NCBI GenBank assembly: GCA_023150845.1
Contig: JAKLKD010000034.1
Location: forward strand, 1-37,879
Reading direction: 5' to 3'
Origin: Myxococcota bacterium
GTDB lineage: Bacteria; Myxococcota_A; UBA796; CAJQPC01
Length of the DNA stretch: 37,879 bases
Below are positions 9,412-35,652 of this stretch, piece by piece. Every line of letters begins with the position of its first letter. The stretch's first letter is position 1. Made by a program: the position numbers and the translations under genes. Below the pieces are notes generated by a model. That model was not told the DNA's origin. It ran no database searches and saw nothing but the letters and a program-made list of their open reading frames with translations.

Positions 9412-9499
9412 GGGTCCTCCGCGCTCCAGGCAGCGCCGAGCGCCCGCGATGGCGGAGGGGCCCGGCCCTCCATCCCCGGAGAGCGGTCATTTCGTCACG

Positions 9500-9680
9500 A
9501 TGAGGCCGGTCTCCTGGCTCCCAGGTCAAGCCGTCGCCCCGCGCCTTCCCACGCTTGACGCGCAGTGGCTTGTGCGGAGGACGTCCCTGGTCACAGTGGC
9601 GGGGGCCGCGTCGGATTTGGCCCAAGGGCCTCACCGACTTCCCGTTTCACCCCACGGCGTCGCCGTGAGGCACCTCATGC
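9500..9680 (-). ncRNA. Cobalamin riboswitch (RF00174 class) in the btuB leader
   Basis: Read on the minus strand, the leader contains the conserved series of a B12 riboswitch: GAGGTGCC near the 5' end, GGGTGAAACGGGAAGTCGGTG-like core split over 9625-9660, CGCCACTGTGACC, GCCACTGCGCG, GGGAAGGCGCGGGGCGACGG, and the 3' B12 box AGCCAGGAGACCGGCCT (9503-9519 on the + strand). Spacing and order match the class. About 88 bases separate it from the btuB start; that part can form a GGAGGG/CCCTCC hairpin but lacks a T run, so control is more likely at translation initiation. Binding of adenosylcobalamin or a related form should lower expression. Confidence 0.95.
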
Positions 9681-9704
9681 GGTTGGGTTGTCAGAGAGCG
9701 CCCC

Positions 9705-24635: not shown

Positions 24636-27209
24636 GTGTCCTCGCTCGTTCGCCGCGCAGTCCTCCTCTTCACCTTGGGCGCCTTCGCCGCCACGCCGAG
24701 CGTCGCCGAGGCCCCCACGGACCTCGTGGACGCGGCCTTGGATCGCATCGAGACGCTCTACCTCGATCGGGGCAGCCTAGAGGCCAGCGCCGTGCTCGAC
24801 GCCGTCGGTCGTCGGCTGGAGGAGGAGATCGAGTGGCTCATGGTCTCCGGCGGCGGCGGTCGCCTGCACCTGCACGTCGGCGGCGGCGCGGCCTTAGGCG
24901 ACGTGAACGTCATCACCTGGGAGGATCTCCGCCCCGGCCTCAGCCGCGTGCAGCAGCTCATCGCCCAGGCCCCGGCGGACCTCGACGGCGACGTGCGCCT
25001 CGACCTCTTGGTCACCATGGGCGTCACCGACGCCTTGGACCGCCACAGCCGCGTGCTCTACGGCGATCGCCTCGACGCCTTCGACAAGCGCCTCAAGGGC
25101 GTGTTTTATGGCGTCGGCGCCCGCATCGTGCAGAGCCCCCAAGGTGAGCTCGTCGTCGAGGAGGTCTTCCGGGGCAACCCCGCCGAGTCCGCGGGCCTGC
25201 GCGCCGGGGACACGCTCGTGCGCATCGACGGTGTGTCCACCACGGGCATGTCCGTGGAGGACGCCACCAAACGCATCACCGGGCCCTTGGGCTCCTCCGT
25301 CGAGCTGCGGGTGCGCCGCCCCTTGCCGCCGGGCGGCCCTGAAGGCGCCACCGTCGAGCTGACGCTGTTGATCGAGCGCGACGAGGTGCGGATCCCCAAC
25401 GTCACCTGGAAGGTGCTCGACGGCGGCTTCGGCTACATCCGCATCGACCACTTCTCTCAGCAGACCGACTACTGGCTCTCCGAGGCGCTCACCGACCTCG
25501 ACAACATGAACGCCTTGGGCCGGGGCATCGTGCTGGATCTGCGCGACAACACCGGCGGCTCCATGGAGCAGTCCGCCGCCGCCGCGGACGCCTTCCTCAC
25601 CGCCGGAGACATCCTGCGCACCGTGGGCCCCGACGGCGGCAAGGTGCGTGGCCTGATGGAGACGAAGTGGGCCGTGGACGACCACATCGAGCCCGACGCG
25701 CCCATCGTCATCCTGCAGAACCGCCGCACGGCGTCCGGCGCGGAGATCCTCGCCGGGGCCCTGCGTGAGCTGGAGCGCGCCGTGCTCATCGGCGACCGCT
25801 CGTATGGCAAAGGCACGGTCCAGAAGCTCTACACCTTAGACGACGACACCCGCCTCAAGCTCACCGTCGCCCGTTACCTCCTGCCCGGCGACCTCTCCAT
25901 CGCCGACGTCGGCATCCCCGCGGATCTCCCCGTGGGCCGGGTGCGCCTCGACGCCGACGGCGTCTCCTTGGTGATGCCCGTCGAGGAGTCCACGGGCCCC
26001 TCGCCGCTGCTCTTGGTGGACGAGCGCCCCGGCTGGCGCACCCAAGGCACGATGCCCGCCGACCGCGGCGACGTGGAGCTCCAGCTCGCCCTGCGTATCC
26101 TCGCTCGGGCCGAGGGCACGAGCCGCTACGACGTGCTCCAAGCCGCCGGTGAGGTGCGTGAGCTGGTGCGCGCAGAGGAGGAGCAGCGCCTCGCCCAGAC
26201 CCTCGCCATTCACAGCATCGACTGGAGCGCCGCGCCCAAGAGCGGCCCGCTCCCCAAGGTGTCTGTGCGGGTGGAGGCCAGCGAGGGCAAACCCGGCGAG
26301 CCCTTCGTGCTCAAGGCTTACGTCACCAACAACGGCGACACCGCGCTGCACCGTGTCGCCGTCCGCGTATCCAGCACAGAGTCCATCTGGGACGACCTCT
26401 ACCTCCCCGTGGGCCGGGTGAACCCCGGTCAGACGGTCTCTGGCAGCATCACCACCCGCCTGCCCCACTCCTTGAGCGCCCGGGAGTCCCTCGTGGGCCT
26501 CCGTGTGGAGTCTGACTTACGCCCCCCGGCCGACGCGGGCGGCGCCGTGCTCAAGACCAAAGGCGCCCCGCTCCCCGCCCTGCGCCTCTCGCTGCGCCTG
26601 CGCCAGCACCCCGACGGCCAGTCTCGCGCCGAGGTGGTGCTCAAGAACCAGTCCGACCGTGAGCTGAGCGGTCTCAAGGTGTATTTTGAGTACCCCGAGC
26701 TCGCCGGGGTCGAGCTGACCGAGGCCGAGGCGTACCTGCCCTCGCTGAGCCCCGGTCGCCAGGCCCTCGTTCATCTCGGCCTCGACCTCGACCCCAACAA
26801 CACCGTCGATCTCCCCCTGCACATCATCGTCGAGGACGAACGTTACGGCGAGCTTCTGCGCTGGTCCTTCGACCTCCCCCGCGACGGCCGCGTGGTCGAT
26901 CTGGAGGCCCCGCGCATCAGCCCCAAGAACGTGCCCACGAGCGCCCCGGCGGGCCCCTTCACCCTGAGCTGGACCGTACAAGACGACCGCGCGGTACACC
27001 ACCAGCTCACCTGGTCCGACGGCGACAAGCTCAGCTACACCCCGTCCAACACAAAGACCGCCCAGGGTGCTGTGCTCGTTGAGCTGCGCCCCGGCCGAAA
27101 CTCCTTCCTCATCGAGGCCGTAGACGACCAAGGGCTCAGCACCCGCAGCTTCGTCATCCTGCGCGGCCAGGTCGAGGGCGACGTGCCGACGAGTGATGCG
27201 AATCCATGA
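24636..27209 (+). CDS. S41-family C-terminal processing protease with CARDB-like C-terminal domains
   Basis: 857 residues from GTG 24636 (GGAG at 24626-24629). Signal peptide (about 1-24), an N-terminal helical domain, a PDZ domain (about 155-230; G-V-G-A-R-I ... N-P-A-E-S-A-G-L-R-A-G-D), then the S41 catalytic core with I-V-L-D-L-R-D-N-T-G-G, Ser367 in R-R-T-A-S-G-A-E-I, and Lys392 in S-Y-G-K-G-T-V-Q. This is the CtpA/Prc Ser-Lys dyad. The C-terminal 370 residues are beta-rich, including a CARDB-like segment (V-R-V-E-A-S-E-G-K ... F-V-L-K-A-Y-V-T-N-N-G-D) and further Ig-like modules, unusual for the family. It is divergent from larB. Substrates are unknown. Confidence 0.9.
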   Translation: MSSLVRRAVLLFTLGAFAATPSVAEAPTDLVDAALDRIETLYLDRGSLEASAVLDAVGRRLEEEIEWLMVSGGGGRLHLHVGGGAALGDVNVITWEDLRPGLSRVQQLIAQAPADLDGDVRLDLLVTMGVTDALDRHSRVLYGDRLDAFDKRLKGVFYGVGARIVQSPQGELVVEEVFRGNPAESAGLRAGDTLVRIDGVSTTGMSVEDATKRITGPLGSSVELRVRRPLPPGGPEGATVELTLLIERDEVRIPNVTWKVLDGGFGYIRIDHFSQQTDYWLSEALTDLDNMNALGRGIVLDLRDNTGGSMEQSAAAADAFLTAGDILRTVGPDGGKVRGLMETKWAVDDHIEPDAPIVILQNRRTASGAEILAGALRELERAVLIGDRSYGKGTVQKLYTLDDDTRLKLTVARYLLPGDLSIADVGIPADLPVGRVRLDADGVSLVMPVEESTGPSPLLLVDERPGWRTQGTMPADRGDVELQLALRILARAEGTSRYDVLQAAGEVRELVRAEEEQRLAQTLAIHSIDWSAAPKSGPLPKVSVRVEASEGKPGEPFVLKAYVTNNGDTALHRVAVRVSSTESIWDDLYLPVGRVNPGQTVSGSITTRLPHSLSARESLVGLRVESDLRPPADAGGAVLKTKGAPLPALRLSLRLRQHPDGQSRAEVVLKNQSDRELSGLKVYFEYPELAGVELTEAEAYLPSLSPGRQALVHLGLDLDPNNTVDLPLHIIVEDERYGELLRWSFDLPRDGRVVDLEAPRISPKNVPTSAPAGPFTLSWTVQDDRAVHHQLTWSDGDKLSYTPSNTKTAQGAVLVELRPGRNSFLIEAVDDQGLSTRSFVILRGQVEGDVPTSDANP

Positions 27210-27244
27210 TAGGCTGAGCTTGCGTAACCCCTGAGGTGACCCCG

Positions 27245-27589
27245 ATGACCCCACGACGATTGGTGATGCTGGCTGGCCTGCTGGGGGTTGGCTGTGATGG
27301 CGAACTCTTCGAGAAGGAGAGCGTCGATCGTTCGTGGTGTACGACAACCTGGATGTGCAACCCCTACTCAGGCGCCGTGGCAATCGAGGGTTCATCTCAA
27401 TGTCCAGAAGGGCAGGTGCCCGCCGTATGTTTGTATAATCGAGACACAGATGTCAGCGATGAGGATGTGTATTGTCATGATGCTGCGTTGTTTGAGGACT
27501 CGTGTCTATATGAATCGAAGTGCAGTTGGAACGAAGAATCGGGGTATTACTTGGTGGAATGCACGGATGTGCTCTACGGGATGCCGTAA
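27245..27589 (+). CDS. Small six-Cys lipoprotein, copy 1
   Basis: 114 residues from ATG 27245 with ribosome binding site GAGGTGA. Short signal peptide with lipobox L-G-V-G-C. The mature part has C-x8-C, a spacer of 14, then C-x9-C-x5-C-x12-C plus two more Cys near the start; the next gene repeats this spacing, so the two are tandem paralogues. The base composition is clearly less GC-rich than in the flanking genes. Its TAA shares a base with the next ATG (TAATG). A TAGGCT box (27210-27215) is the likely -10. Function is unknown. Confidence 0.75.
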   Translation: MTPRRLVMLAGLLGVGCDGELFEKESVDRSWCTTTWMCNPYSGAVAIEGSSQCPEGQVPAVCLYNRDTDVSDEDVYCHDAALFEDSCLYESKCSWNEESGYYLVECTDVLYGMP

Positions 27590-27939
27590 TGTCTCGCCCT
27601 ACCTTTTTTGTGTATATTCTTTTCGGCGGGTTTACGCTCGCATGTTCAGGCCGTGGCCATGCGCCCGAAGACTCATCCGCGTTTCATTGTGGTAGGCAAG
27701 AGCTCTCCGAACTATTTGACTATTGTGACGGTCCAACCCTCTCCGACGGCGATGACTGCTTGGAGGGCGAGGTTCGTATAAATTGTACAGTCGTGTGGCA
27801 GCAGTATGGCGAGGGATATGGGGGTGCGTTAGAGGACGATCGGTGTGCCCCTGCCGACTACATCCAATCCATCTGTGGGGAGGTCATTCCTTGCTCGGTC
27901 GCGAGCGATGACACGATCTACCTGCGCTGCGGAGAGTAA
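27589..27939 (+). CDS. Small six-Cys lipoprotein, copy 2
   Basis: 116 residues from ATG 27589, overlapping the previous stop by one base. Signal peptide with lipobox F-T-L-A-C. The mature domain has C-L-E-G-E-V-R-I-N-C (C-x8-C), a 19-residue spacer, then C-x9-C-x5-C-x11-C, the same frame as copy 1, including the S-x6-Y-x-L-x-C ending. Six conserved Cys suggest three disulfides. Like copy 1 it is AT-richer than neighbours. The beta-helix lipoprotein starts two bases after it, so the three are probably co-transcribed. Function is unknown. Confidence 0.75.
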   Translation: MSRPTFFVYILFGGFTLACSGRGHAPEDSSAFHCGRQELSELFDYCDGPTLSDGDDCLEGEVRINCTVVWQQYGEGYGGALEDDRCAPADYIQSICGEVIPCSVASDDTIYLRCGE

Positions 27940-27941
27940 TT

Positions 27942-29105
27942 GTGAAGATTCTGACCACCACGATCCTCTTCTTCACGCTTCCAAACACCCGGCGGCGAGC
28001 CCTCCTCCCGTGGCTTCTGCTGCCCTCGCTCCTCGCCTGCAAAGGCGGGGACACCCCCTCCGACGACAGCGCCTCTGACACGGCGCCGACGGGCCCCTGC
28101 GCCGATGGCACCTATGGCCACATGGACCCTGCGGGGGTCATGGTGCGGGTCGATGGCTCCGACGACGAGGGCGACGGCAGCGAGGAGCGTCCCTACCAGA
28201 CCCTCGCCCGCGCCCACATGACCGGAGCCACCAACATCTCCTTGGGGCCTGGTGAGTTCGCGGGCTCTTACGACTTTGGGTACAGCGAGACCTTCAGCCT
28301 CACGGGCTGTGGTCCGGGGGAGACCTTCATCGTCGCAGATGAGAGTGTGCAGCCGGCCATCGACATCGAGTCGCTGTACCTGACCCTTCGCGGCTTCACC
28401 GCCCGTGGGGGGACCGTCGGCCTCTCGATCTTCGGCCCAAGGGAGCTGACCCTGGAGCAGGTCGATGTTGAGGAGTCGTTTAACATCGGCATAACACTCA
28501 ATACTGCGCTCGACGCGACTCTGCGTCACATCAACATCTCCAACATTCAGCCCAGCTCCGCGATGGACAGCACCGGGGTGAGTCTTGTCAATATCGAGGC
28601 GCTCGATGTGCAAGACCTGAGCGTCCGCAGCATGGCGGCGGGGATCGGAATTCTGACGGGTGGAGCGGCCGGGACCTTCCAGCGGGTCGACGTCAGCGAG
28701 ATCAACGGGGTTGGCGCCCATCTGAACTCCAGCTCAATCACCTGGACTGGGGGCTCGGTCACCAACATTCAAGGCATCGGGATCGCTGTGTCGTCTCCCG
28801 GCGAGCGCACCTTCAACAACCTCACCGTGTCTGACATCACCCCGGGTGACAGAGGCAGCGGCGATGGGATCGGGGTGTGGACATCGGGCAGTGACCCGAT
28901 CGAGAGCCGGGTGCTGCGAATCAACAACAGCACGGTGACGAACACCGCCCGCGCGGGCGTCATCGTCAGCAACACGATCGGGGATCTCAACGGCAACACC
29001 GTCGAGGACTGCGCGTTCCCGGTCTGTGTGTTCGCCCAGGAGGGCGCGCAGATGATCGGCTCAGACGAATACATCGAGGCCGAGAAGCCCTTCACCTTCC
29101 CTTGA
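27942..29105 (+). CDS. Right-handed beta-helix lipoprotein
   Basis: 387 residues from GTG 27942. The signal peptide is long, ending L-L-A-C (lipobox), followed by an Asp/Ser/Thr spacer (D-T-P-S-D-D-S-A-S-D-T). The mature part begins with D-G-S-x-x-E-R-P-Y-Q-T-L (DUF1565-like start, 'DGSEERPYQTL') and continues with about ten rungs of short Val/Ile/Asn-rich strands (L-R-H-I-N-I-S-N-I-Q, G-V-S-L-V-N-I-E-A-L-D-V). This is a parallel beta-helix of pectate-lyase fold; no catalytic residues are recognised, so it may be a binding or structural surface protein. Confidence 0.85.
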   Translation: MKILTTTILFFTLPNTRRRALLPWLLLPSLLACKGGDTPSDDSASDTAPTGPCADGTYGHMDPAGVMVRVDGSDDEGDGSEERPYQTLARAHMTGATNISLGPGEFAGSYDFGYSETFSLTGCGPGETFIVADESVQPAIDIESLYLTLRGFTARGGTVGLSIFGPRELTLEQVDVEESFNIGITLNTALDATLRHINISNIQPSSAMDSTGVSLVNIEALDVQDLSVRSMAAGIGILTGGAAGTFQRVDVSEINGVGAHLNSSSITWTGGSVTNIQGIGIAVSSPGERTFNNLTVSDITPGDRGSGDGIGVWTSGSDPIESRVLRINNSTVTNTARAGVIVSNTIGDLNGNTVEDCAFPVCVFAQEGAQMIGSDEYIEAEKPFTFP

Positions 29106-30955: not shown

Positions 30956-32077
30956 TCATGCCGTCGTGGCCGGGAGGAGCGCGGCTCGGAGGATCGCCGT
31001 GTGGGCGTCGGCGACGGTGAGCCCGCGCTCGGCCGCGTGACGGCGCAGCGCGTCGCGGAGCGAGGCCTCCAAGCCCGAGACCGCGGCGGGCTCCCGAGGC
31101 GGGTTCACCCAGACGCCGCGCTGATGCCAGTCGGCCGGGAAGGCCATCCGCTTGAGCTGGTCGGGGGTGCGCTCCGCGACCAGCGCGACGAGCCGCGCCC
31201 GCCAGGTGCTCTTGGGGTTGAGGTGGTTGAGGATATACGCGAGGACGACGAGGTAGTTGTAGAGGTGTTTGTCGGGGGCGGTGACGAGCTCGCCGCTCGG
31301 CGAGCGTGTGGTGAAGGTGACAAGATCATCGCGGAGCTGATTGAGGGTCGGGAGCCCCTTCGCGTGAAGACGATCCCAGCATCTGTTGTGATGTGCACAC
31401 ACGTTTCGTATTGATGAGAGCGCCTCGACAACGCGGTGGGCGACCTGCTGATTCGGTAGCCCAAGGGCTTCTGAGACTGCTCGTTTTACATTCAAGCTGG
31501 CTGTGTGCTCAAGCCACCGCGAGAGCTCTCCGAAAGACAGGGTCTCTACAAGGGCCCAAACGGGCGGAAAGCGCGGTGAATCGTAGGTGCCACGGTAATG
31601 CACAGCGAATGACTCTTGTGAGTCGTTTAGCTTTCTGGCTCCGTTGGACATCAGGCTGAGGGCATCGACGCTTCCATCTGTCCGTTTAGGGTCAAGCCAG
31701 GCATGTGCGTTTGGGTGCACGCCTCGCTGCTCGTCCGCCTCCCGCGCCAAGGAGTTCGCCCATGCGCTCCTCAGGGTGACCTCGACACGTTCAATGGCCT
31801 CCATGATGAGCAAGCGGAGCTTGCGGTCGAAGACGTAGAGGTCGAGGACCTGGTCGAACGTGGTCCCGGGCAGGATGGCGTGGTCACGAGCCCCACTCTC
31901 TTGAGTCCCCCTCTCAAAGGCTGCGAGGTAACCGCTGAGCCGAAAGTACCCGATCTGACGCAGATATCGAAGCGCGCGCGCTTCATCATCGATTTGGAGA
32001 CCACGAGCACGCAGCAGCGCGATATGCTCAGCGTCCGTCTTGACGGTCTTCGGGTAAGAGATCTTTACCTTCGACAT
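30956..32077 (-). CDS. Abi_2 (AbiD/AbiF-like) HEPN protein, probable RNase toxin of an RNA-antitoxin system
   Basis: 373 residues from ATG 32077; longer in-frame readings run into the hairpin RNA and are rejected. Family features: Y-P-K-T-V-K-T-D-A-E-H-I-A-L-L-R-x-R-G-L at the start, Y-L-R-Q-I-G-Y-F-R-L-S-G-Y (38-50), F-D-Q-V-L-D-L-Y-V-F-D-R-K-L-R, I-E-R-V-E-V-T-L-R, and the HEPN nuclease motif R224-N-V-C-A-H229. Abi_2 proteins give abortive infection against phage. Related AbiF proteins are RNases held by a cognate upstream RNA and are considered relatives of Cas13 ancestors. Here a promoter and a 65-base hairpin lie directly upstream. The gene is less GC-rich than its surroundings. Roughly 80 C-terminal residues look like an extra helical extension. 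Confidence 0.9.
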   Translation of the reverse strand: MSKVKISYPKTVKTDAEHIALLRARGLQIDDEARALRYLRQIGYFRLSGYLAAFERGTQESGARDHAILPGTTFDQVLDLYVFDRKLRLLIMEAIERVEVTLRSAWANSLAREADEQRGVHPNAHAWLDPKRTDGSVDALSLMSNGARKLNDSQESFAVHYRGTYDSPRFPPVWALVETLSFGELSRWLEHTASLNVKRAVSEALGLPNQQVAHRVVEALSSIRNVCAHHNRCWDRLHAKGLPTLNQLRDDLVTFTTRSPSGELVTAPDKHLYNYLVVLAYILNHLNPKSTWRARLVALVAERTPDQLKRMAFPADWHQRGVWVNPPREPAAVSGLEASLRDALRRHAAERGLTVADAHTAILRAALLPATTA

Positions 32078-32112
32078 GCCATTTCCCCGCGCGCGAAGCC
32101 CAGAAACAAGAA

Positions 32113-32183
32113 ACCTCCCCTTTAGACCTTCCGCTCTGCGCTCCGTAAGGAGCGAAGAACGACGAGGTAGGGGAGGTGTTGTC
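32113..32183 (-). ncRNA. abiF-type hairpin RNA upstream of the Abi gene (candidate RNA antitoxin)
   Basis: On the minus strand ACCTCCCCT (32177-32169) pairs perfectly with AGGGGAGGT (32121-32113). Inside, ACCT pairs with AGGT, GTTCT with AGAGC (one G-U pair), and CGCTCC with GGAGCG around the loop TTAC (apex at 32145-32148). Together they make one long imperfect hairpin of 65 bases. A perfect -35 and a -10 lie so that the RNA would begin near 32183, about six bases before the stem. The Abi ATG follows 35 bases after the stem. A conserved 'abiF RNA' motif is known upstream of Abi_2 genes; match to it is inferred, not tested. Confidence 0.75.
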
Positions 32184-32189
32184 TCGCCT

Positions 32190-32218
32190 CGTTTATCTGG
32201 TGGCCCCGACGGTGTCAA
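32190..32218 (-). promoter_or_regulatory. Promoter of the Abi hairpin RNA
   Basis: On the minus strand TTGACA (32218-32213, perfect -35), a 17-base spacer and TAAACG (32195-32190; GATAAA at shorter spacing also possible). It points into the hairpin at 32177-32113 and would also supply the Abi mRNA. Confidence 0.65.
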
Positions 32219-32240: not shown

Positions 32241-32451
32241 CAAGGCCCCCGAGATTAGGATCCACCCCCTCTAAAACCTCCACTCCCTGGCCCGGAGGGC
32301 GATGAGCGCAGGGAGGCGAGAGGCGTCGTCGCTCTGCGACTTCGCCGCTTCATCGAGTCCCGTCAAGCATCGCCCGCTCCCATCCCTCAATCTTGGTCAC
32401 CCACCCAATCTTCGCCCAGGGCTCCCCCTGTGCGATCCCCCACACCAACTC

Positions 32452-32481: not shown

Positions 32482-32531
32482 GTGGAGGTCCGACCCCCTC
32501 GCCGACCTCCAGGAAGGAAGCGGAGCCCCCC

Positions 32532-33941
32532 ATGCGCGTGATGCTGATCCGTCCCCCCGCCAAGCACACCGTCGAGAGCGAGGTGCCCGCCGCGGTTGAG
32601 GCCGAGAACCTGTCGTATCCGCCTTTGGCGATCCTCGCGCTGGCGACGTACTTGAAGGCCCACACCCACCACGAGGTGTGCATCCTCGACGCCCAGCTCG
32701 ACAACCTCGACTACGAGACCTTGGAGGCCAAGGTCAAGGAGTGGGCGCCGGAGGTGGTCGGGATCACGGTGTTCACCGTCGGCCTCGTGGACTGCCTGCG
32801 CACCGTCGCGACCGCCCGCCGCTGCCCCTCGGTCAAGCACATCGTGCTCGGCGGGCCCCACATCAACGACTTCCCCAAGGAGTCCGTGGGCCTGGCCGGC
32901 GTTGACGCGGTCGTGAAGGGTGAGGGCCAGAAGCCCCTGCAGCTCTTGCTGGACGCCTGGGAGAAGGGCCTCACGCCCCGGGGCATCCCCGGCGTCGTCG
33001 CCCACCCCGACGACCCCGTGCCCACCGAGGACGTCTACTTCTCGAACAACCTCGACGACTACCCGCCGCTCGACCTGGACCTCATCGAGTACAACCGCTA
33101 CTACGACGTCATGGGCGAGGGCGGCATCTTCACCACGATGGTCACCAGCCGCGGCTGCCCCTACCGCTGCACCTTCTGCAACACGCCGCGCCACCGCTAC
33201 CGCGTGGCCACGCCGGGCCGGGTCTGCGACGAGATCGAGGGCTTCTTGGCGAAGGGGATCAAGGAGATCTACTTCGTCGATGACACCTTCAACATCACGA
33301 ACAAGCGTGTGCATGAGCTCTGCGACGAGATCCTGCGCCGCGGCCTCAAGTTCACCTGGACGGTGCGCTTCCGCGTGAAGGGCGTCGATCGCCCGCTGTT
33401 GGAGAAGATGAAGGCCGCGGGCTGCCACCGCATCCAGTTCGGCGTCGAGCAGGGCACTGAAGAGGGGCTCTTGCGGCTCAAGAAGGACGTGTCCTCGGCC
33501 GAGATCGAGCACGCCTTCGCGCTCTGCCGGGAGGTCGGCGTGCGCACCGTGGCCTACTTCATGATCGGCACGCCCACCGAGCGCAGCCGCCAGGACGTGG
33601 TGGACACCATCAACTACTCCATCCGCCTGAACCCCGACTTCGTGATGTACAACATCCTCACGCCCTTCCCGGGCACGACGATCTACGACGAGGGGATGCG
33701 CGACGGGGTCCTCGACATCCAGCCCTGGCTCGACTTCATGCGCCAACCGCACGAGGACTTCAAGGCCCAGGTCTGGGACGAACACTTCACCCGGGATGAG
33801 CTGCGGGACATGCTGCACATGGCCTACCGCCGCTTCTACTGGCGTCCCCGCTTCGTCGCCCGAAACCTCGCGCAGATCCGCAACCCACGGGATCTTCTGC
33901 GCAAAGCGACGGCGGGTATCCGCCTGCTCACCGCTGACTAG
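32532..33941 (+). CDS. B12-binding-type radical SAM protein 1
   Basis: 469 residues from ATG 32532 (GGAG at 32522-32525). The N-terminal about 150 residues have the Rossmann-like fold of cobalamin-binding radical SAM enzymes (M-R-V-M-L-I-R-P-P start, V-V-G-I-T-V-F-T, H-I-V-L-G-G-P-H), without the D-x-H-x-x-G motif, as is usual for this class. The radical SAM core has C209-P-Y-R-C213-T-F-C216 for the 4Fe-4S cluster, then F-V-D-D-T-F-N and Y-F-M-I-G-T-P. The C-terminus is a short helical extension ending near R-R-F-Y-W-R-P-R-F. It is an orphan member: such proteins modify lipids, hopanoids, antibiotics or peptides, often by methylation, and the substrate is unknown. Confidence 0.9.
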   Translation: MRVMLIRPPAKHTVESEVPAAVEAENLSYPPLAILALATYLKAHTHHEVCILDAQLDNLDYETLEAKVKEWAPEVVGITVFTVGLVDCLRTVATARRCPSVKHIVLGGPHINDFPKESVGLAGVDAVVKGEGQKPLQLLLDAWEKGLTPRGIPGVVAHPDDPVPTEDVYFSNNLDDYPPLDLDLIEYNRYYDVMGEGGIFTTMVTSRGCPYRCTFCNTPRHRYRVATPGRVCDEIEGFLAKGIKEIYFVDDTFNITNKRVHELCDEILRRGLKFTWTVRFRVKGVDRPLLEKMKAAGCHRIQFGVEQGTEEGLLRLKKDVSSAEIEHAFALCREVGVRTVAYFMIGTPTERSRQDVVDTINYSIRLNPDFVMYNILTPFPGTTIYDEGMRDGVLDIQPWLDFMRQPHEDFKAQVWDEHFTRDELRDMLHMAYRRFYWRPRFVARNLAQIRNPRDLLRKATAGIRLLTAD

Positions 33942-34045: not shown

Positions 34046-34111
34046 ATGAACCCTTCGCCCTCGCACCGCACCCCCCTCGCGCCCCACGCGCACGCAATGG
34101 AGACGGCATGA
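34046..34111 (+). CDS. Possible 21-codon leader peptide overlapping the radical SAM start
   Basis: ATG 34046 lies seven bases after the -10 box, so it could be read from a leaderless message. The frame encodes M-N-P-S-P-S-H-R-T-P-L-A-P-H-A-H-A-M-E-T-A and its TGA (34109-34111) overlaps the ATG of the radical SAM gene (34108) as ATGA. Translation could couple to the main gene. Peptides this short arise by chance, so this is only a candidate. Confidence 0.3.
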   Translation: MNPSPSHRTPLAPHAHAMETA

Positions 34112-35652
34112 AGCTCACCCGCTGCCTGATGATCGGCCTCTACGGCATCGAGAACAGCGGCGTCCGTCACCTCACCTCGATGCTCAAGCAGCGAGGGGGG
34201 TACCGCGCCGACCTGATGTTCTTCAAGGACTGGCGGCACAACCGCGTGGAGTGGCCGACGGAGGACGAGTACGGCCTGCTCGTCGACCTCATCGAGCGGG
34301 AGGGTTACCACCTCGTCGGCTTGAGCTTCGGCTCGCCGTACTACCGCGTGGCGATCGAGGTCACCAAACGCATCAAGGAGCGCCTGGGCGACAAGGTGCT
34401 GGTCATCTGGGGCGGCCTGCACCCCACGCTCACCCCGGAGCACTGCATCCAGCACACGGACATCGTCTGTGTGGGTGAGGGTGAGTACCCGCTCTTGGAC
34501 CTCGTCGGGCGCCTGGAGGACGGCCGCTCGATCAACGACGTGCCGAACATGTGGATCCGTGAGTCCAACGGCACGATCCACCGGAACCCCGTGAAGGAGC
34601 TCGTCACGAGCCTCGACGACCTCACCTTCCGTGAGTTCGGCGGCGACGACAAGTTCTTGATCGACAACAACCTCCTCACCCGCGGCGATCCCCTCGTTCA
34701 TCACCGCGAGTACCGCATCTTCGCCAGCCGCGGCTGCCCCTACAAGTGCGCCTACTGCTACAACAGCTCTCTGCGCGCCATCTTCCCCGAGGGCAAGGGC
34801 AACTACCACCGACGCCGCAGCGTCGACAACGTCATGGCTGAGCTTCGCCTGGCCCGGCAAAAAATGCCGAACATGGCCTGGGTCAAGTTTGACGACGACA
34901 CCTTCGTCTTCCCCAAGAAGTGGCTGCAAGAGTTCGCCGAGAAGTACAAGGCCGAGTTCGGTGACCTGCCCTGGGACTGTATGATGACCCCGGACGTCGC
35001 CCGCATCGAGAACCTGCGCCTGCTCAAGGACGCCGGGCTCCGCGGCGTACAGATGGGCATCGAGGCGGGCTCGGACCGTGAGCAGAAGGAGGTCTACGAC
35101 CGCACCTCCACCGTCGCGCAGATCCTCGCGTTTGACGAGATGAACCTGGAGCTGGGCCTCGACGTCAAGTACGACGTCATCATCGACAACCCCCTGGCCT
35201 ACACCTCGGACAAAGACGCGCTCTTCCAGCTCCTCATGGACCTGAAGTCGCCGTACAAGATCTATCTGTACTCGCTCACGCTCTACCCCAAGAGCTCGGT
35301 GACCGAGAAGATGTTGACGGCGGGATACGCCACAGAGTCCGACGTCGAGGGCTTCGCCACGAAGTCGTTCCGGCAGTTCCGCGTGAGCGTGGACTGGCAG
35401 CGCAGCAACGAGGACAAGTTCTACCTCGCTCTGTATATGTTGGTGAACAAGCAGTTCATCTCCCGCGACTTCATCTGGAAGATCTACAAGTCCGACTTCT
35501 GGCGTAAACACCCCGACCTGCTCCTGGAGTTTGCCCAGGGCGCCAACCTCGTGCGCATGACGGGCATCGCCGCCGAGATGGCCTTCCGCGGGGAGCTCTC
35601 CCTGCAGAAGGTGCGTGAGTACGGCAACATTCGGAAGATGATCAACCAGTAG
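34108..35652 (+). CDS. B12-binding-type radical SAM protein 2
   Basis: 514 residues from ATG 34108, GGAG at 34099-34102. The N-terminal domain (about 1-160) is the cobalamin-binding-like Rossmann fold with V-G-L-S-F-G-S-P and V-I-W-G-G-L-H-P-T-L-T-P-E, then G-E-G-E-Y-P. The radical SAM core has C210-P-Y-K-C214-A-Y-C217-Y-N, later V-K-F-D-D-D-T-F-V-F and G-V-Q-M-G-I-E-A-G-S. The C-terminal 130 residues form a family-specific helical domain. It is only distantly related to the upstream radical SAM protein and has its own promoter. The substrate is unknown. The 3' end overlaps the convergent ATPase gene by 11 bases. Confidence 0.9.
   Translation: MKLTRCLMIGLYGIENSGVRHLTSMLKQRGGYRADLMFFKDWRHNRVEWPTEDEYGLLVDLIEREGYHLVGLSFGSPYYRVAIEVTKRIKERLGDKVLVIWGGLHPTLTPEHCIQHTDIVCVGEGEYPLLDLVGRLEDGRSINDVPNMWIRESNGTIHRNPVKELVTSLDDLTFREFGGDDKFLIDNNLLTRGDPLVHHREYRIFASRGCPYKCAYCYNSSLRAIFPEGKGNYHRRRSVDNVMAELRLARQKMPNMAWVKFDDDTFVFPKKWLQEFAEKYKAEFGDLPWDCMMTPDVARIENLRLLKDAGLRGVQMGIEAGSDREQKEVYDRTSTVAQILAFDEMNLELGLDVKYDVIIDNPLAYTSDKDALFQLLMDLKSPYKIYLYSLTLYPKSSVTEKMLTAGYATESDVEGFATKSFRQFRVSVDWQRSNEDKFYLALYMLVNKQFISRDFIWKIYKSDFWRKHPDLLLEFAQGANLVRMTGIAAEMAFRGELSLQKVREYGNIRKMINQ

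Follow-up and report, generated by a model that had tools for sequence, protein, structure and literature searches.

An abiF-like gene and its HEPN protein

The window (the whole 37,879-nt stretch that was analysed) contains an abiF-like gene of the AbiD/AbiF group, preceded on the same strand by a hairpin RNA and a promoter-like pair of elements (Table 1). The encoded protein carries the Abi_2 domain (Pfam PF07751; E = 1.5e-44, 153 bits against a cut-off of 25.6) and is matched by the PADLOC AbiD model (4.1e-52), which also takes the studied Clostridioides difficile AbiF. These results bear out the first-pass annotation, which had described an Abi_2 protein with an R224/H229 HEPN motif. Its coordinates, extending up to 32218, correspond to a TTG-initiated extended open reading frame that spans the promoter and the hairpin; homologues start near 32077. 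The loss of the motif in relatives, which the same annotation had named as counter-evidence, was looked for in the homologue alignment, and the R, N and H of the motif proved invariant (41/41).

Sequence searches of the PDB gave a single strong match, entry 8vz6 (phmmer 5.3e-40; profile 5.1e-91), described as 'PbAbiF dimer bound to ncRNA'. Foldseek with the AlphaFold model of the window protein (pLDDT 86.8) likewise returned 8vz6 as the sole significant match (E 5.3e-17, TM 0.87 to target). The protein thus combines the features of AbiD/AbiF membership: an Abi_2 domain above the curated threshold, a HEPN R(N/H/D)xxxH motif and the fold of a solved AbiF. The C-terminal extension noted earlier as unusual is real, and in the 41-protein alignment it is genus-restricted: residues ~326-373 have no counterpart throughout, the sister species described below excepted, and residues 353-373 are reached by the window and sister proteins alone. 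The structure model places helices at residues 331-351 and 355-367.

The gene (30959-32077) is a mosaic in composition, with a third-position G+C of 0.66 in codons 1-240 and 0.90-0.92 in codons 241-373, and the gene of the sister species shows a similar mosaic. By composition, its final third appears host-like.

Table 1 Features of the abiF-like locus in the window.
Feature	Position	Strand	Basis
-35 element TTGACA	32213-32218	-	Sequence, perfect; homologues have it at the same distance from the RNA
-10 region, weak	32190-32197	-	TAAACG at 17-nt spacing or GATAAA at 15 nt
Decayed second RNA unit	32244-32332	-	R2, 14.4 bits, E 0.001 in 801 bases
Putative AbiF-type antitoxin RNA (AbiFr-like), intact unit	32096-32185	-	R1 and R2 matches; fold; covariation
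Hairpin proper	32113-32177	-	Exactly 65 nt long, with 35 nt between its end and the ATG
5' strand: basal stem (32169-32177) and core helix ACCU (32165-32168)	32165-32177	-	Fold; frame nearly invariant in four genus units
Apical stem-loop, upper part variable between units	32131-32162	-	Two-sided changes keep pairing
3' side: core helix AGGU (32126-32129), unpaired CUAA, basal stem AGGGGAGGU (32113-32121)	32113-32129	-	Fold
U-rich tract after the hairpin	32100-32112	-	Sequence; T-runs at the same place in homologues
abiF-like gene (AbiD/AbiF group, Abi_2)	30956-32077	-	373 aa; ATG start at 32077, stop included
HEPN catalytic motif R224-N-V-C-A-H229 (RNVCAH)	31391-31408	-	41-homologue alignment
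C-terminal extension, ~residues 325-373	30959-31105	-	41-protein alignment; two predicted helices

Structure and family membership of the upstream RNA

The length and position reported earlier for the hairpin proved exact (Table 1), and its fold of -42.1 kcal/mol (z = -5.5) was equalled by 0/200 dinucleotide shuffles. The usual AbiF RNA carries GCUCAAA or GCGCAC on its 3' side and has a two-pair GC/GC core between the stem and the apical part. The covariance model R1 (see below) aligns the 3' side of the window hairpin with this GCUCAAA/GCGCAC strand. The window core reads ACCU...AGGU-CUAAA. In the R1 alignment the first core pair has changed from G-C to A-U, whereas C-G persists, and two further pairs lengthen the helix; as aligned, the frame of the window RNA is thus homologous but rewired. 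Locus L031 shows the same G-C to A-U core change, and its core is also extended.

The covariance search against the Rfam abiF family (RF03085, gathering threshold 37 bits) that had been proposed as a check gave no match to the window hairpin, whether at Rfam's own gathering level, with E ≤ 10 in a 601-base segment, or across the genome. R1 was built from the RNAs upstream of 29 AbiF genes of Myxococcota, Pseudomonadota, Actinomycetota, one cyanobacterial plasmid and one C. difficile phage, with the window locus and its sister left out; among the 29 was L028, the distant second AbiF locus of the window genome. R1 matches the window at 32107-32182 with 24.9 bits (E = 2.8e-6 over 37.9 kb), the next best score being 10.8. 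Nine pairs in the 29-RNA alignment are paired in 98% of cells, and seven of the nine show two-sided changes (0/500 shuffles). Among 80 Abi_2 loci of viral contigs that had not been used in building, R1 recognised a coding-strand RNA directly upstream in 41; several of these matches lie at 23-27 bits, comparable to the window's score, and covariation holds there too, in an alignment fitted to the model.

Genome-wide, R1 also gives 23.1 bits antisense in a LysR-type gene, and for that reason the significance of the window's 24.9 bits rests on position. The genome-wide R1 search comprised 150 scored candidates among which the window itself is missing, so that it yields no copy count. In the reciprocal direction, a genus covariance model (R2), built partly from the window RNA, finds RNAs upstream of other AbiF genes (L004, 33.7 bits, E = 3.3e-7), and its genome-wide matches are confined to AbiF loci of the two sister genomes. 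The covariation test upstream of homologues, also suggested by the first-pass annotation, came out in favour of the hairpin, which is conserved upstream of the close homologue with compensatory changes between the two, in addition to the reciprocal R1 and R2 matches. The window RNA belongs to a broader AbiF-associated RNA family than RF03085 covers.

A dispersed repeat of the REP or attC kind was considered and rejected: the exact 5' frame occurs once in the window genome (G000) and three times in the sister genome (G069), at the AbiF locus only, and R2 finds nothing beyond AbiF loci.

Promoter and transcript layout

The earlier claim of a promoter ahead of the hairpin stands in part. The -35 element is a perfect TTGACA in a homologue-like position, but the -10 is weak and a generic sigma-70 scan did not call a promoter before the window hairpin. 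Across 33 AbiF loci, the end of the best promoter-like pair lay 3-9 nt ahead of the RNA motif in 85%, while shuffled sequence gave 29%, and at most AbiF loci the -10 ends 5-8 nt before the motif. The window arrangement, TTGACA-17-TAAACG located 7 nt before ACAAC, fits this pattern. Promoter (with its weak -10), RNA and toxin gene thus follow one another directly on one strand of the window. The U-rich tract after the hairpin is possibly a weak terminator or attenuator ahead of the toxin reading frame.

Tandem RNA units in a sister species

A sister species, represented by a Myxococcota metagenome-assembled genome (G069:C136; loci L003, L011 and L084), carries an AbiF protein 89% identical to that of the window at the same chromosomal place, with flanks that are 88-94% identical. 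Its upstream region contains three RNA units, starting at positions 2602, 2750 and 2896 of L003 and thus ~147 nt apart, whose basal frames are near-identical to the window's and whose apical stems differ. The apical stems of units 1 and 3 are still paired; the middle unit, c2, has a damaged basal stem and a fold no better than shuffles (z -0.39). The second unit of the window, at 32244-32332, has a local alignment to c1 and c2 of the sister that was matched by 0/500 shuffles, and its fold no longer beats shuffles (z -0.13). As regards the tandem repeats of type III systems, the window shows one intact and one decayed unit, and the sister three units.

Comparison of the window unit with its positional orthologue, c3, shows 57/57 identical positions in the frame and 11/26 in the apical variable part, while the four-fold degenerate sites of the gene are identical at 136/192 (71%) between the two species. 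The apical value lies below that of the four-fold sites with P ~0.002 if sites are independent and ~0.015 if they are counted as pairs. The window top is nearer to that of c1 (17/26 identical). Any one of exchange between units, relaxed evolution and diversifying evolution would account for the apical divergence between these two genomes. It is conceivable, though we consider it improbable, that the tandem units make up an array with constant frames and variable tops whose apical stem-loops are diversifying or being shuffled because they matter, for example in evading antitoxin-sequestering phage factors or in keeping units distinct. If true, this would be an intermediate on the way from a single antitoxin RNA to an array of the repeat-spacer kind.

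A probable divergent AbiF/AbiFr-type toxin–antitoxin locus

We interpret the locus, with a probability of roughly 0.86, as a divergent AbiF/AbiFr-type (type III-like) toxin–antitoxin and phage-defence locus. Its basis comprises the protein family and fold, the conserved HEPN site, the RNA homology, the covariation and the conserved order of promoter, RNA and gene. Transcription, toxicity, neutralisation by binding, attenuation and a phage trigger would follow by analogy with studied AbiF systems. Toxicity of AbiF-Cd is seen in both C. difficile and Escherichia coli and requires R202 and H207 (PMC12373285); RCd22 neutralises it in cis and in trans by direct binding (PMC12373285). For PbAbiF, the account given in a review (PMC12737573) has one AbiFr per monomer, with single-stranded bulge bases inhibiting the RNase.

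By this analogy, the promoter (32190-32218) would start a short RNA at about ACAAC (32182), which would fold into a basal stem, a core helix with the unpaired CUAA strand and an apical stem-loop. The RNA would end at or beyond the U-rich tract, with occasional read-through giving the toxin mRNA. Its basal and core frame may bind the AbiF protein and so keep the HEPN RNase inactive, until a drop in RNA supply, as in phage infection, would free the homodimeric RNase and stop growth. The hairpin had been proposed earlier as an antitoxin or a guide-like RNA. RNA homology (R1/R2) and covariation tie the hairpin to the RNAs of other AbiF loci, and it presumably shares the antitoxin role of the studied ones; the guide-like part found no support. 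Against the toxin–antitoxin interpretation stand the absence of any RF03085 score for the hairpin, the R1 score of 24.9 bits that is not unique genome-wide (23.1 bits antisense in the LysR-type gene), the weak -10 element and the circumstance that a hairpin followed by U residues could be a mere attenuator.

This last point leads to a rival reading that we hold to be unlikely, in which the hairpin acts in cis only, as an attenuator or leader that keeps toxin expression low without binding the protein. The succession of hairpin and U-rich tract, with 35 nt from the hairpin end to the ATG, is what such an element would look like, and a G+C-rich stem followed by a T-run recurs in many homologues. 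However, a plain terminator needs no conserved frame, and in the window hairpin the core helix and the unpaired CUAA align with the same strand of other AbiF RNAs and the frame is fully identical between species against 71% at four-fold sites. Several homologues (L028, L032 and L005) have a separate terminator-like hairpin after the RNA, and RCd22 and AbiFr work via protein binding (PMC12373285, PMC12737573).

A guide-like RNA, whose variable apical segment would steer the HEPN RNase to targets in a pre-Cas13 arrangement, is very doubtful. The constant frames and differing variable segments of the sister's three-unit array would suit it, as would the proposal that AbiF is the ancestor of Cas13 (PMC12165695, PMC12737573). 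Yet all intact variable segments are self-paired and covary to stay paired, and two 20-mers from apical tops had zero exact matches in viral contigs; a guide role is unlikely for these two reasons. In addition, the protein has one HEPN motif only and no CRISPR-like repeat array lies near the gene. That the locus is a degenerate remnant, with a decaying RNA array and a protein no longer functioning as a toxin, is suggested by the decay of the second window unit and of c2 (z -0.39) and by an orphan abiF-type RNA elsewhere in the genome, which hints that such loci decay, but is scarcely credible given that both species retain an open reading frame with an intact HEPN site (proteins 89% identical) and one intact RNA unit with an identical frame.

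Comparison with known systems

The toxin–antitoxin interpretation places the locus beside AbiF-Cd/RCd22 of the C. difficile prophages phiC2 and phi027 (PMC12373285), which likewise combines an Abi_2 HEPN protein bearing RNxxAH with a structured RNA that has its own promoter, lies directly upstream and contains its motif more than once. With R1 the phiC2 RNA reaches 32.7 bits, this RNA being among the sequences from which R1 was built. The two proteins share 24% identity, and the window protein has the C-terminal extension. The phiC2 RNA matches Rfam abiF, whereas the window RNA does not; RCd22 has two motifs 19 nt apart in one transcript (PMC12373285), whereas the units of this genus start ~147 nt apart. 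PbAbiF-AbiFr (PDB 8vz6; Zilberzwige-Tal et al., Cell 2025, as presented in PMC12373285 and PMC12737573) has the same fold and the same pairing of a HEPN protein with a cognate ncRNA; PbAbiF is 29% identical to the window protein over the aligned structure, a comparison made at the level of the protein fold.

With RF03085 the window RNA shares the succession of stem, short core helix, apical part, conserved unpaired strand and stem, directly upstream of Abi_2 genes. It differs in a longer apical stem-loop, in the core (ACCU/AGGU for GC/GC) and in GUCUAAA for GCUCAAA. Type III toxin–antitoxin systems (ToxIN, CptIN, TenpIN) resemble the locus in having, upstream of an RNase gene, a small and structured RNA, which in the sister is repeated, and, by analogy, probably in inhibition through RNA binding; toxin structure and complex differ. 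ToxI repeats are ~36 nt and toxin-cut (PMC12373285), whereas the units here have ~147 nt between starts and differ in their tops. CRISPR-Cas13 shares HEPN ancestry with the AbiD/F group (PMC12165695), but the window protein has one RxxxxH motif and its variable RNA segments are self-paired; neither of the type VI hallmarks, two HEPN motifs and a CRISPR array, was found, and there are no short, regularly spaced repeats near the gene.

The system type is thus known, and the variant, judged against Rfam, is outside the curated RNA library. With this locus, the AbiF RNA family reaches further than the Rfam model, and the comparison indicates which parts of the RNA are changeable (the core pairs, rewired with compensation, and the apical stem) and which are unchanged (the basal frame and the unpaired strand). 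AbiF with its RNA is the proposed starting point of CRISPR-Cas13, and one genus here offers a natural multiplication of the RNA into a constant-frame, variable-top array, which makes the step from single RNA to array testable.

Related RNAs and genomic surroundings

A second Abi_2 gene of the same genome (G000:C152:15470-16360) has a near-canonical abiF RNA directly upstream, which scores 30.5 bits with Rfam abiF (below the gathering threshold of 37) and 25.5 bits with R1. This second locus (L085:2974-3995, minus strand) is conserved in the sister genome (L029). The orphan abiF-type RNA (G000:C75:8956-9027; L080:2457-2528, plus strand) scores 33.9 bits with R1, has an extended core, CACACGU/ACGUGCAAAA, and is flanked by two chromosomal ORFs, and no Abi_2 gene follows it; a matching intergenic stretch was not found in the sister species. 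The orphan represents either what is left of a lost AbiF locus or an antitoxin RNA on its own. L008 and L012, an actinobacterial and a same-phylum locus, share a different hairpin (stem-CUCU-stem-loop-AC-stem) just upstream of their Abi_2 genes. R1 gives no match to this type at E ≤ 1, and it is possibly another AbiF RNA subtype.

No defence genes were seen among the tested neighbours of abiF, which comprise two radical-SAM/B12-binding proteins, one CotH and one beta-helix protein, and an unassigned ORF. Sister contig L084, elsewhere syntenic with the window, lacks at this position the stretch 27209-29099, which includes the beta-helix ORF (27942-29105). The two radical-SAM proteins with B12-binding domains are encoded by adjacent genes on the plus strand (32529-33941 and 34108-35652), divergent from abiF, and the window also contains a cobalamin riboswitch at 9487-9692 on the minus strand (Rfam RF00174, 119.4 bits).
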